NCBI GenBank assembly: GCA_902536935.1
Contig: CACAZM010000007.1
Span: 1 to 64,000, forward strand
DNA from: an uncultured Bacteroidota bacterium
GTDB taxonomy: Bacteria; Bacteroidota; Bacteroidia; Flavobacteriales; Flavobacteriaceae
DNA length: 64,000 nucleotides
Direction: 5' to 3'
Positions 42,333 through 47,229 of the stretch are shown one piece after another. The notes below the pieces were generated by a model that worked only from the letters and a program-made list of their open reading frames with translations, was not told the DNA's origin and ran no database searches. Positions within the stretch are counted from its first letter, which is position 1. Each line of letters starts with the position of its first letter. A program made the translations under genes and the position numbers.

Positions 42333-43376
42333 ATGGTCAAACATCACAAAATTTTGATTTTTGCTTCTGGATCGGGAACAAATGCCGAGCAAATTATTCG
42401 TCACTTTTCTCCCAAACCCAGTGTAGAAGTCTTGGGGGTTTACTCTAACAACCCTTCTGCCTTTGTTTTAGAACGCGCGAAGCAATTGGGCGTTTCAACC
42501 CATGTTTTTAATCGTGAACAGTTCAACAACCCAGCTGATTTGCTGAAAAACTTGCAGGCCCAATCACCAGACCTTATTGTACTTGCGGGGTTTTTATGGA
42601 AAATCCCCTCTCATATTATTGATGCATTCCCCCACAAAATCATCAATATTCATCCTGCTTTATTGCCCAAACATGGCGGCAAAGGGATGTATGGCCACCA
42701 TGTTCATCAAGCGGTGATTGATGCAAAAGAAACTGAAAGCGGAATAAGCATTCACTATGTCAACAATCAGTATGACCAAGGAGCAATTATTTTTCAAGCC
42801 AAAACTTTGATAAACCCAGATGAGGACCCAGATAGCCTGGCACAAAAAATTCATAAGTTAGAACACAGGCACTTTTCGGAAGAAATTGAAAAACTACTTC
42901 TTGTAGTAGACAAACAAGTCAATTTGTATACGGATGGCGCAGCAAGCGGTAATCCGGGGCCTGGGGGTTATGGCTTAATCTTAGAATGGGAGGGAACCCC
43001 TCATAAAAAAACACACTCCCAGGGCTTTATTCACACCACTAACAACAGAATGGAGCTCAGGGCTGTCATTAAAGGACTTCAAATGCTTAAAAAATCCCCA
43101 CTTGATGTTGTCGTATATACAGACTCGAAGTACGTTAGTGAGGCAGTTAATAAAAAGTGGGTGCTTGGCTGGGAAAGAAAAGGATTTAAAAACAAAAAAA
43201 ACGCAGATCTTTGGATTAAATTTTTAGAAGTATTTCGCAAACATAATGTGAGAATTAAATGGATTAAGGGGCACAATCAACACCCACAAAACGAATACTG
43301 TGATAAGATGGCAGTAAAGGCATCAAAACAAACCGAGAGTCACATTAAAGATACTGGATACCAAAACAAAAAATAG
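42333..43376 (+). CDS. Fused phosphoribosylglycinamide formyltransferase (PurN) and ribonuclease HI (RnhA)
   Basis: 347 aa in one uninterrupted frame. Residues 1 to about 190 are PurN, which formylates GAR in purine synthesis: SGSGTNAEQII at the N-terminus, INIHPALLPKHGGKGMYG with the catalytic Asn/His, and NNQYDQGAII with the Asp. Residues about 195-340 are RNase HI: YTDGAASGNPGPGGYG (Asp), NNRMELRAV (Glu), YTDSKYV (Asp) and EYCDKMA (Asp), so the whole DEDD set is kept. The join is nearly linkerless (LLLVVDKQVNLYTDG) and offers no ATG or GTG there. In related genomes these are, as I recall, separate neighbouring genes. Followed 3 bp later by the PfkB gene. Confidence 0.9.
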   Translation: MVKHHKILIFASGSGTNAEQIIRHFSPKPSVEVLGVYSNNPSAFVLERAKQLGVSTHVFNREQFNNPADLLKNLQAQSPDLIVLAGFLWKIPSHIIDAFPHKIINIHPALLPKHGGKGMYGHHVHQAVIDAKETESGISIHYVNNQYDQGAIIFQAKTLINPDEDPDSLAQKIHKLEHRHFSEEIEKLLLVVDKQVNLYTDGAASGNPGPGGYGLILEWEGTPHKKTHSQGFIHTTNNRMELRAVIKGLQMLKKSPLDVVVYTDSKYVSEAVNKKWVLGWERKGFKNKKNADLWIKFLEVFRKHNVRIKWIKGHNQHPQNEYCDKMAVKASKQTESHIKDTGYQNKK

Positions 43377-44359: not shown

Positions 44360-46255
44360 ATGAGTGATTCGATCAAACACGAATGTGGTATAGCGCTCCT
44401 TCGGCTATTAAAACCACTTCAATATTATCAGAACAAATATAACAGTTTGTTTTTTGGAATTTATAAGATGTATTTAATGCTTGAAAAACAGCACAATCGC
44501 GGTCAAGACGGTGCAGGTTTCGCGAGTATAAAATTAGACATGAACCCAGGGGACAGTTTTATGAGTCGTGTACGGTCCTCTGAAAACCAACCCATTCAAG
44601 ATGTTTTTTCAACAATAAACAGTGAACTGAACGACGTTTTTCAAGAATTTGGGAAAAACAATCTGACCGATCTTGAAATTAAACAAACATATCCTTATTT
44701 AGGAGAATTGATGATGGGTCATTTGCGATATGGAACATTTGGAAATAACGAAATCGGCAGTGTGCACCCGTTTTTACGTCAAAACAATTGGATGCACCGA
44801 AACCTAGTGTTGGCTGGAAATTTCAACTTGACCAATGTCAATGAGCTTTTTGACAACTTGGTCAACTTAGGGCAGCATCCAAAGGTAAAAGCAGACACCG
44901 TTACCGTGATGGAAAAAATAGGGCATTTTTTAGATGATGAAGTTACAAAAGAGTACAAAAAGTTAAAAAAGCAAGGTTACTCCAAGCAAGACGCCTCGCC
45001 AATTATTGCAGAAAACTTAAAAATTCCAAAAATCCTGAAAAAAGCTACCAAAAATTTTGATGGGGGCTATGTGATTAGTGGGATGCTTGGGCACGGAGAT
45101 GCATTTCTGATGCGTGACCCAAATGGGATCCGTCCTGCTTATTATTTTCAGAACGATGAGTTTGTAGTAGCCGCCTCCGAACGACCTGCGATTCAAACTG
45201 TTTTTAATGTCCCCTTTGAAGACATTAACGAGGTGTTACCTGGCCACGCTCTGATTATTAAGAAAAACGGCAAAACCTCAATGAAAGAAATTTTACCAGC
45301 TGAAGAACTAAAGGCGTGCTCTTTTGAGCGCATATATTTCTCGAGGGGAAATGATGCTGAGATTTACAATGAAAGAAAAGCTCTAGGAAGACACCTTTTT
45401 GCCAAAGTGCAAAATGCGATCAATGATGATTTTAAAAACACGGTTCTTTCTTACATCCCTAATACTGCAGAAACTGCTTTTTACGGCCTTGTAGAGTCGG
45501 TACAAGCCCATTTAAAGAAACAAGCATTAGAGACTTTGCAATCAAAAACCAACCCCACAAGGGCAGACCTAGAAAAAACACTAAACTGTAGCCCACGGAC
45601 GGAAAAAGTGATTTTAAAAGATGTAAAACTTCGAACATTTATTACTGAGGACAGTAGTCGAGAAGACTTGGTTGCCCACGTCTATGACATCACCTATAAA
45701 ACAGTAAAGCCTACAGACAATTTGATTGTTATTGATGACAGCATTGTTCGGGGGACAACACTAAAGAAAAGTATCTTAAAAATCCTTGACAGATTGTCTC
45801 CAAAAAAGATTGTGGTAGTTTCAAGCGCACCACAAATTCGTTATCCAGATTGTTATGGAATTGACATGGCACGTCTTGAAGATCTTATTGCTTTTCAGGC
45901 CATGCTTGCTTTGTTGACAGAACATGATAAAGAGTCGATGTTGGAAACGGTTTATAAGGCTGCTAAAGCGGAAATGAAAAAGCCAGACGTTGAGGCAACA
46001 AACGTCGTCAATGCATTATACGAGGCGTTTTCAACAGATCAGATTTCAAAAAAAATAGCGCAACTTGTTAAGGAAGATGGGATTCGTAGTGAAGTTGATG
46101 TGATTTTTCAAGATGTTGAGAGTCTGCATCAAGCGTGTCCTAAAAATTTAGGAGATTGGTATTTTACGGGTAATTATCCAACTCCAGGCGGCAATCGTGT
46201 TGCAAATCAAGCATTTATCAATTTTATTGAAGGCAACAAGCAGCGAGCATATTAG
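44360..46255 (+). CDS. Amidophosphoribosyltransferase-like protein (PurF family, long form)
   Basis: 631 aa, longer than classic PurF (about 470-505). The N-terminal glutaminase region opens MSDSIKHECGIALLRL: the nucleophile would be Cys9, so an eight-residue propeptide must be removed, as in B. subtilis PurF. EKQHNRGQDGAGFAS and GHLRYGTFG are conserved glutaminase segments. The PRPP loop is intact as NLIVIDDSIVRGTTL near 457-471, with RDPNGIRPAYY in the central domain. Inserts include a helical segment around 190-230. It is the long Bacteroidota paralogue; whether it is the main purine-pathway enzyme cannot be told here. Two small-RNA cassettes follow. Confidence 0.88.
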   Translation: MSDSIKHECGIALLRLLKPLQYYQNKYNSLFFGIYKMYLMLEKQHNRGQDGAGFASIKLDMNPGDSFMSRVRSSENQPIQDVFSTINSELNDVFQEFGKNNLTDLEIKQTYPYLGELMMGHLRYGTFGNNEIGSVHPFLRQNNWMHRNLVLAGNFNLTNVNELFDNLVNLGQHPKVKADTVTVMEKIGHFLDDEVTKEYKKLKKQGYSKQDASPIIAENLKIPKILKKATKNFDGGYVISGMLGHGDAFLMRDPNGIRPAYYFQNDEFVVAASERPAIQTVFNVPFEDINEVLPGHALIIKKNGKTSMKEILPAEELKACSFERIYFSRGNDAEIYNERKALGRHLFAKVQNAINDDFKNTVLSYIPNTAETAFYGLVESVQAHLKKQALETLQSKTNPTRADLEKTLNCSPRTEKVILKDVKLRTFITEDSSREDLVAHVYDITYKTVKPTDNLIVIDDSIVRGTTLKKSILKILDRLSPKKIVVVSSAPQIRYPDCYGIDMARLEDLIAFQAMLALLTEHDKESMLETVYKAAKAEMKKPDVEATNVVNALYEAFSTDQISKKIAQLVKEDGIRSEVDVIFQDVESLHQACPKNLGDWYFTGNYPTPGGNRVANQAFINFIEGNKQRAY

Positions 46256-46314
46256 TAAACACAGAAAACATTTAATTTTTTTTTCGAAAATCGTTATGGT
46301 TCCTAAAAAAAATG

Positions 46315-46322
46315 TACTTTAG
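46315..46322 (+). promoter_or_regulatory. -7-like element of RNA cassette 1
   Basis: TACTTTAG, seven of eight positions close to TAnnTTTG (the last two bases read AG). Its -33 region is weak. Confidence 0.4.
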
Positions 46323-46398
46323 CAAAGCCATAACATAAGTAGGTTAAGTTCATGGTAAGATTTGGGGCAAAAAAGGAGGAGTCTTTCCTCCTTTTTTA
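46323..46398 (+). ncRNA. Candidate structured small RNA, copy 1
   Basis: Predicted transcript of about 70-75 nt. Hairpin 1 (46327-46356): GCCAU pairs with AUGGU, AAC with GUU across a bulged C, then an A-A mismatch, then UAA with UUA closing the loop GUAGG. A single-stranded linker AAGAUUUGGGGC (46357-46368) leads to hairpin 2, a perfect 12-bp Rho-independent terminator. No open reading frame is compatible with both copies. It may be a trans-acting RNA or match a known Bacteroidota motif such as Flavo-1, which I cannot verify. Boundaries are approximate. Confidence 0.6.
46369..46397 (+). terminator. Rho-independent terminator of RNA copy 1
   Basis: AAAAAAGGAGGA (46369-46380) pairs perfectly with TCCTCCTTTTTT (46386-46397) around the loop GTCTT. 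The stem ends in a T-run. Confidence 0.85.
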
Positions 46399-46483
46399 TT
46401 TTATCCGCAACTGTAGTGTTACGGCCTTTTTAATCCGCCAACAATATATTTTTAAAAAGTCTTTTGATTTCAAAAAAATAGTG

Positions 46484-46491
46484 TACTTTAG
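46484..46491 (+). promoter_or_regulatory. -7-like element of RNA cassette 2
   Basis: TACTTTAG, with TTTG at 46463-46466 and a 17-bp spacer as a plausible -33 element. Confidence 0.45.
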
Positions 46492-46567
46492 CAAAGCCAT
46501 AACATAAGTAGGTTAAGTTCATGGTAAGATTTGGGGCAAAAAAGGAGGAGTCTTTCCTCCTTTTTTA
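46492..46567 (+). ncRNA. Candidate structured small RNA, copy 2
   Basis: Identical to copy 1 from the -7 element to the end of the terminator; hairpin 1 at 46496-46525, linker 46526-46537, terminator 46538-46566. Only its upstream sequence differs, giving it a better -33 element, so the two copies may be expressed under different conditions or strengths. The convergent sodA gene ends 51 bp downstream. Confidence 0.6.
46538..46566 (+). terminator. Rho-independent terminator of RNA copy 2
   Basis: Same perfect 12-bp stem with loop GTCTT and T-run as in copy 1. Confidence 0.85.
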
Positions 46568-46623
46568 TTTTACAAAAAAAGAGCGAAATGCCCCTTTATT
46601 TTTTTGACAGCTATTACGATTTT

Positions 46624-47229
46624 TTATTTGGCTGCTTCAAAGTGATTTGCGACCACCTCCCAATCAATGACATTAAAAAAAGCATCTATATACTCGGGTC
46701 TGCGATTTTGATAGTTGAGATAGTAGGCGTGTTCCCAAACATCAAGTCCTAGAATAGGGACTCCACCACATGCAACACCAGGCATAAGAGGGTTGTCCTG
46801 ATTCGCGGTTGAGCAAACCTCTAAACGCCCACCTTTATGAACACACAACCAAGCCCATCCGGAACCAAATTGAGTTGCGGCAGCAGCACTAAAGGCAGTT
46901 TTAAACTCATCAAATGAACCAAACGAATTATGAATTGCATCCGCCAAACCGCCCGAAAGAGTTTTTGGATTTGGGCTCATCAAGCTCCAAAACAGACAAT
47001 GATTATAAAACCCACCCCCATTGTTACGAACAGCGCCATTGCTCATATCTAGGTTTTGAAGAATATCCATAATAGACTGAGATTCAAGGACTGTGCCAGC
47101 AATAGCTGCATTGAGTTTGGCGGTATATCCAGCGTGATGCTTGGTGTGGTGAATCTCCATGGTTCGTGCATCTATATGCGGTTCCAAGGAGTCATAAGAA
47201 TATGAAAGCTGAGGAAGTTCGAAGGACAT
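46624..47229 (-). CDS. sodA: Superoxide dismutase, Fe/Mn family
   Basis: 201 aa cytosolic enzyme dismutating superoxide. Metal ligands are recognisable: His in [13 protein letters not shown] (near 27), His in FYNHCLFW (near 77), and Asp and His in [12 protein letters not shown] (near 162-166). The start of the protein, [19 protein letters not shown], is canonical. The choice of Fe or Mn cannot be made from sequence alone. Single-gene unit with its own promoter; it converges on the RNA cassettes. Confidence 0.96.

Follow-up and report, generated by a model that had tools for sequence, protein, structure and literature searches.

One stretch of the window, by which we mean the 64,000 nucleotides of uncultured Flavobacteriaceae DNA analysed here, raises the question of why the same short unit should stand twice, without a change, between a purF-like gene and a superoxide dismutase (SOD) gene. 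The first-pass annotation had read this as a 91-bp perfect duplicate, 169 bp apart, running from a -7-like promoter element to just past a terminator, and had proposed tandem small RNA (sRNA) genes. The duplicate is exact: positions 46313-46403 and 46482-46572 form a maximal exact repeat of 91 bp, with a start-to-start distance of 169, and the ends of the repeat fall where the proposed unit does, each copy starting 2 bases 5' of a TACTTTAG box and ending just past a hairpin with a T-run.

In copy 1, which like copy 2 lies on the forward strand, the -7 promoter box TACTTTAG (TAnnTTTG across the family) occupies 46315-46322 and the inferred 5' end of the RNA is near 46327. The fold and the family alignment then place the 5' hairpin at 46327-46356, with its apical loop GUAGG at 46339-46343, followed by the G-rich linker AAGATTTGGGGC at 46357-46368, which is predicted to be mostly unpaired and of which AGATTTGGG is invariant, and by the terminator at 46369-46403, recognised from the fold and from covariation in the family and made up of a 12-bp stem (46369-46397) and a T-rich tail. 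The identical elements of copy 2 are the box at 46484-46491, the 5' hairpin at 46496-46525 (apical loop 46508-46512), the linker at 46526-46537 and the terminator at 46538-46572 (stem 46538-46566 plus tail). A single open reading frame (ORF) of 60 aa or more reaches into the repeat (46531-46752, with a TTG start within the copy 2 linker), and it is not common to both copies, as had been noted. Since another species of the window's genus (G012) carries one unit identical to those of the window and one at 99% identity, the identity of the units is, as far as sequence can tell, no less suggestive of purifying selection than of recent duplication. A degenerate third piece (26.5 bits) lies on the window's contig just past the window, at 65645-65710 (L004, about 855-890), where TACTTTAG is followed by ATGGTAAGATTTGGG and the loop is missing.

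The fold proposed at first was reproduced in all its parts, namely a 5' hairpin of 11 pairs with an A-A mismatch and a bulged C, a G-rich linker of 12 nt and a terminator hairpin with a 12-bp stem. The predicted energy was -21.9 kcal/mol (z -2.8), with 4 of 200 shuffled sequences equally stable. The minimum-energy fold holds 4 extra pairs, between the linker and bases 5' of the hairpin, which are absent from the centroid, and the predicted unpaired probability averaged 0.93 in the loop (lowest 0.46) and 0.89 in the linker (lowest 0.52).

The scan against Rfam that the first-pass annotation had recommended gave no sign of a known leader family. At the gathering thresholds the whole window yielded one tRNA elsewhere and nothing at the repeat, and no family reached threshold either in 46200-46700, where the best sub-threshold score was that of sraA (30.7 of 56 bits, E-value 0.0077), or in the six-copy array of Zobellia (L044, 700-2100). 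BASRCI337 appeared below threshold with an E-value of 0.00016 (26.5 of 229 bits), and both it and sraA are read as low-complexity or terminator matches. Two motifs, Flavo-1 and 6S-flavo, which are named in the available part of a 2010 motif paper (PMC2864571), were not among the Rfam matches for the window or for 46200-46700.

The unit is found throughout the family. Although 56 of 60 relatives gave a DNA match at E≤1, many of these are chance matches; the strong ones came from the window's genus and from many further genera of Flavobacteriaceae. Covariance model searches, which spanned the family and the order, detected the sRNA at E≤0.01 in 173 of the 199 genomes from the family, or in 147 of the 164 of good quality, and at E≤1e-6 in 163 of the 199. 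A search in other Flavobacteriia had been suggested at first. An exact scan of named genomes with a 22-base core returned at least 118 stretches, and among 80 of their titles were Zobellia, Maribacter, Winogradskyella, Aquimarina, Flavobacterium and other Flavobacteriaceae, the remainder of the 80 being labelled only as Bacteroidota or Flavobacteriia bacterium. In the order-wide sample 75 of 246 genomes had a model match that reached E≤0.01, and outside the family, within the order, the best score was 40.4 bits and no match was convincing; the loop and the linker were missing from the three matches inspected in other families (L174, L175 and L179) as well as from one at 31.8 bits within the family (L177). 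No viral contig contained the exact 22-base core pattern. Most of the sampled Flavobacteriaceae genera carry the putative sRNA gene, often in several copies at one place.

Three elements are kept across the family, namely the 5' hairpin and its near-invariant loop UAGUAGGUUA, the linker AGAUUUGGG, which is near-invariant too, and a terminator whose stem covaries. The model gave 232 matches across 100 loci preselected by the exact core. In a first alignment, which took the best 150 of these matches (120 distinct rows) and was fitted, like the second, to the covariance model, both-side changes were seen in 10 of 13 terminator pairs, with 99.8% of cells paired. The 5' hairpin had both-side changes in none of its 11 pairs, six of which were invariant, so this alignment tells little about it. 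A second alignment, of 67 diverged matches (59 distinct), showed both-side changes in 3 of the 11 pairs of the 5' hairpin (94.6% of cells paired) and in 11 of the 13 of the terminator (99.0%), and in all 67 rows the loop AGUAGGU and the linker AGAUUUGGG, with AGATTTGGG, were identical. The covarying pairs that had been proposed as a check are therefore present in relatives, above all in the terminator, and the claim of a conserved hairpin with a G-rich linker is upheld by the compensated 5' hairpin of the diverged copies and by the invariant linker. Departures from the core are rare, one being a broken linker in L070 near 6644.

The place of the arrays is also largely conserved. The window's units are flanked upstream by a purF-like amidophosphoribosyltransferase gene (44360-46255, forward strand) and downstream by a convergent SOD gene (46624-47229, reverse strand), names that come from NCBIfam matches under the curated cut-offs (purF, 127 bits against 350; Mn superoxide dismutase, 231.7 bits against 363). 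Among these 118 stretches, going by crude ORF calls, 93 of the 103 with an upstream flank had a purF-like gene there on the strand of the array, 79 of the 98 with a downstream flank had a convergent SOD gene there, and the order purF-array-SOD was found in 61 of the 84 holding both flanks. Counting the exact core only, with variant copies excluded, these 84 stretches had one copy (37), two (20), three (13), four (9), five (4) or six (1), numbers that fit but do not prove the idea that the dose of the RNA matters. Elsewhere in the window, a single ORF at 42333-43376 fuses a PurN-like formyltransferase with ribonuclease HI.

The claim of tandem sRNA genes, each with its own promoter and terminator, is thus borne out by family-wide conservation, a covarying terminator and a conserved -7 box, and we conclude that this is a real, family-wide family of tandem sRNA genes, outside Rfam and with a testable candidate regulator. 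Each unit would be an independent gene, with a Bacteroidota-type promoter and its own terminator, and its presumed transcript would be an sRNA of about 75 nt in which the 5' hairpin presents the loop UAGUAGGUUA, the linker AGAUUUGGGG is single-stranded and the terminator hairpin closes the 3' end. The best explanation, and in our judgement the probable one, is a trans-acting multicopy sRNA driven in much of the family by a LytTR regulator. From this anatomy, and by analogy with LhrC and FopS, we infer that the sRNA would pair in trans with mRNAs via the loop, the linker or both, and the tandem copies would presumably raise its output.

The target prediction that had been suggested found no target in gene samples covering about a tenth of three genomes, a coverage at which a real target could be missed. 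At the start sites of 886 genes there was no clear enrichment of seeds: complementary words enriched at starts, such as CATGAA, mostly contain ATG and so reflect the start codon, while ACTTAT, which does not, was observed 64 times near starts against 39.6 expected. In 974 genes, sites of 8 bases numbered 46, as against 31 in a control interval, and duplex energies for 964 genes pointed to no obvious target class. The neighbouring SOD gene was considered and rejected as a target: its start region gave a mean of -17.3 kcal/mol against the sRNA, compared with -14.2 for mononucleotide shuffles (98 genes), with a preferred site in 50, but the pairing structures were ragged and unlike one another (40 of 91 viewed). 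For rpsF, no consistent pairing was seen in 12 loci.

The absence of seed enrichment at start sites bears on the main rival to trans-acting pairing, a protein sponge. CsrB and RsmZ titrate CsrA, and the sRNA might likewise be a decoy that titrates an RNA-binding protein through its loop and linker, the number of copies setting its capacity. The near-invariance of both unpaired elements throughout the family and the presence of several copies per genome would suit such a role. Against this, no partner protein is known and the RNA is short, with a single loop, and antisense sRNAs such as FopS are also multicopy (PMC11697453, in its available text), and we regard the decoy as unlikely, if well worth keeping in mind.

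It is a good deal more doubtful that the units are not free RNAs but mainly terminators, and 3' ends left by processing of the purF mRNA, which would act locally in cis between purF and the convergent SOD gene. Their position after purF and convergent to SOD, and the A-rich and T-rich arms that flank the stem, are what this reading would predict, but a conserved -7 box stands before each single copy, some copies lie away from purF (for example L023 and L036), and the conservation of the loop and linker exceeds what a terminator needs. Nor is it credible, although UCCUCC does occur in both copies of the window, that this arm acts as an anti-Shine-Dalgarno mimic binding ribosome-binding sites, since it lies within a stable stem, and the sequence of that stem is free to covary. 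The resemblance to the anti-Shine-Dalgarno end pointed out in the first-pass annotation did not hold up in the family, TCCTCC being found in only 23 of 346 copies selected by AGTAGGT and GATTTGGG, and GGAGGA/UCCUCC is, judging from these sequences, the form taken in the window's genus by a terminator stem that varies freely. A CCAAAT motif 3' of the terminator in 17 of the same 346 copies was dropped because several of these share one other element ending GGGGTGGCGAGC.

Returning to a trans-acting sRNA, what might control it is suggested by the DNA upstream. Removing redundancy reduced 364 upstream regions, which included duplicate loci, to 139, and in these the TAnnTTTG box matched at all six fixed letters in 66, at five in 67 and at four in 6. 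Two TTnAYC-like direct repeats, spaced 20 bp apart, stand some 57 and 37 bp 5' of the box. With a repeat matrix trained on the 139 regions and scored as the best of seven shifts, 248 of 303 ordinary copies reached 9 or more, as did 2 of the 45 copies that have a second type of promoter and 1 of 16 rows (14 distinct copies) from the window's genus. In random sampled DNA, a fraction of 0.00012 of 2.5 million positions exceeded the median score of the sRNA promoters. The second promoter type is marked by ATACCAGTA, which lies within the box or immediately ahead of it (as in the last copy of L044), and its general lack of direct repeats hints at a second regulator.

A candidate for the first regulator came from a scan of 1.2 Mb of three relatives and the window with the matrix, in which one of the best 45 sites precedes the gene of a LytTR-domain response regulator, a link that was noticed among those sites and is therefore post hoc. 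The direct repeats stand before the LytTR gene in all 29 scored orthologues of more than 80% identity, which include the discovery gene, are related and hence not independent tests, and leave one close orthologue unscored for want of upstream DNA; the background rate is 3.0% of 794 genes scoring 10 or more. The repeats also precede two orthologues at 62% (L245 and L246), and the promoters of three at about 65% (L244, L247 and L248) and of three more at about 53% scored low. The orthologue in G036 (L281) scored 14.8, or 8.1 with a too-early start, and that in G033 (L268) 3.4. Autoregulation of LytTR genes in general was rejected, as 1 of 28 in five genomes reached 10 (2 of 30 loci unscored).

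The two genes also tend to occur together, in counts that ignore phylogeny: LytTR (E≤1e-60) and the RNA (E≤1e-6) were both found in 146 of 199 genomes, LytTR alone in 3, the RNA alone in 17 and neither in 33, the RNA cut having been picked after the list was inspected and scoring as absent those 10 of the 173 genomes whose matches were weaker. This co-occurrence counts for less in view of shared ancestry and of the 17 genomes with the RNA alone. Those examined among the 17 were six that were scored, the window's genus and G201, with G200 (L336) unscored. We had predicted that RNA-bearing genomes lacking a close LytTR would have lost the repeats, and this failed for four of the six scored; three of these exceptions (G032, G078 and G213) have a divergent syntenic LytTR, and in G123 none was located. 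The other two of the six fell short of scoring for repeats, and in the case of G134, which scored low, the -7 box was, by eye, mis-anchored.

Synteny gives a further line of evidence. In the 9 orthologues checked, the LytTR gene lies between priA and the bS6 (rpsF)/bL9 genes, and divergent LytTR genes (35-42%), all below the cut and with direct repeats missing from their own promoters, occupy the same slot in the RNA-bearing G032, G078, G201 and G213. None of 16 LytTR loci from the RNA-less G014, G028, G035, G060 and G166 was in this slot, some of them being near contig ends. An orphan LytTR response regulator adjoins the bS6/bL9 genes in many Flavobacteriaceae (L240-L248, L311-L313 and L316). 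In much of the family the upstream direct repeats are a putative binding site of the orphan LytTR encoded between priA and rpsF, and one regulator protein may switch the sRNA genes on in many members of the family.

The window's genus is a natural case without this regulator. LytTR is absent from its usual slot in G000, G005 and G011, where rpsF directly follows priA, and 13 genomes of the genus had no LytTR match at 1e-60. Given the empty slot in those three genomes and the scarcity of the repeats, expression of the window's two copies is probably constitutive or controlled in some other way. Taken as a whole, the family-wide circuit, in which a LytTR beside rpsF would drive arrays of an sRNA with a near-invariant core, itself a core regulator of the Flavobacteriaceae, and the small-genome genus of the window would keep two copies without the regulator and nearly all of the operator, is a tentative proposal that we hold at somewhat under an even chance. 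Direct tests can be designed, since the RNA is usually found at one place, its core is near-invariant, its paralogues can be counted, its promoters are of two types and a candidate regulator can be named.

Neither a circuit of LytTR and tandem sRNA arrays nor an sRNA kept across the whole of the Flavobacteriaceae is described in the literature that we found, which, supplements aside, held no description of the window's RNA, the available part of the Bacteroides thetaiotaomicron map (PMC7366714) included. Studies of F. psychrophilum (PMC9723704) and F. columnare (PMC5395568) report sRNAs, as far as their accessible text goes, and overlap with the present family is possible. Rfp18 and the other Rfp sRNAs of Flavobacterium psychrophilum come from the same bacterial family, and Rfp11, 13, 15 and 18 are said in the accessible text to be conserved in other species (PMC9723704). 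Compared by description only, Rfp18 pairs through a third stem-loop according to that text (PMC9723704), whereas the window's RNA has two hairpins.

Like the LhrC genes, the arrays consist of several near-identical tandem genes, each with a promoter and a terminator. LhrC seeds are CU-rich and LhrC belongs to another phylum, whereas the loop and linker here are AG-rich and the candidate regulator is an orphan LytTR. LhrC of Listeria monocytogenes is likewise a multicopy sRNA, and the abstract of its report names a two-component system, LisRK (PMC4132741). Within the phylum, the closest multicopy sRNA family that we came across is FopS/GibS of Bacteroides (RF04319), which, in the available text of PMC11697453, shares with the present RNA several paralogous copies, a conserved seed and a terminator. 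The FopS model gave 16.5 bits per copy against a cut-off of 56, and, for the six-copy array of Zobellia, was not among the matches listed up to E 1. According to the same text, the 5' part of FopS is single-stranded, without a hairpin, and its copies are intergenic, antisense or derived from 3' UTRs (PMC11697453), whereas the RNA of the window carries a 5' hairpin before its linker and its copies stand in one tandem array.
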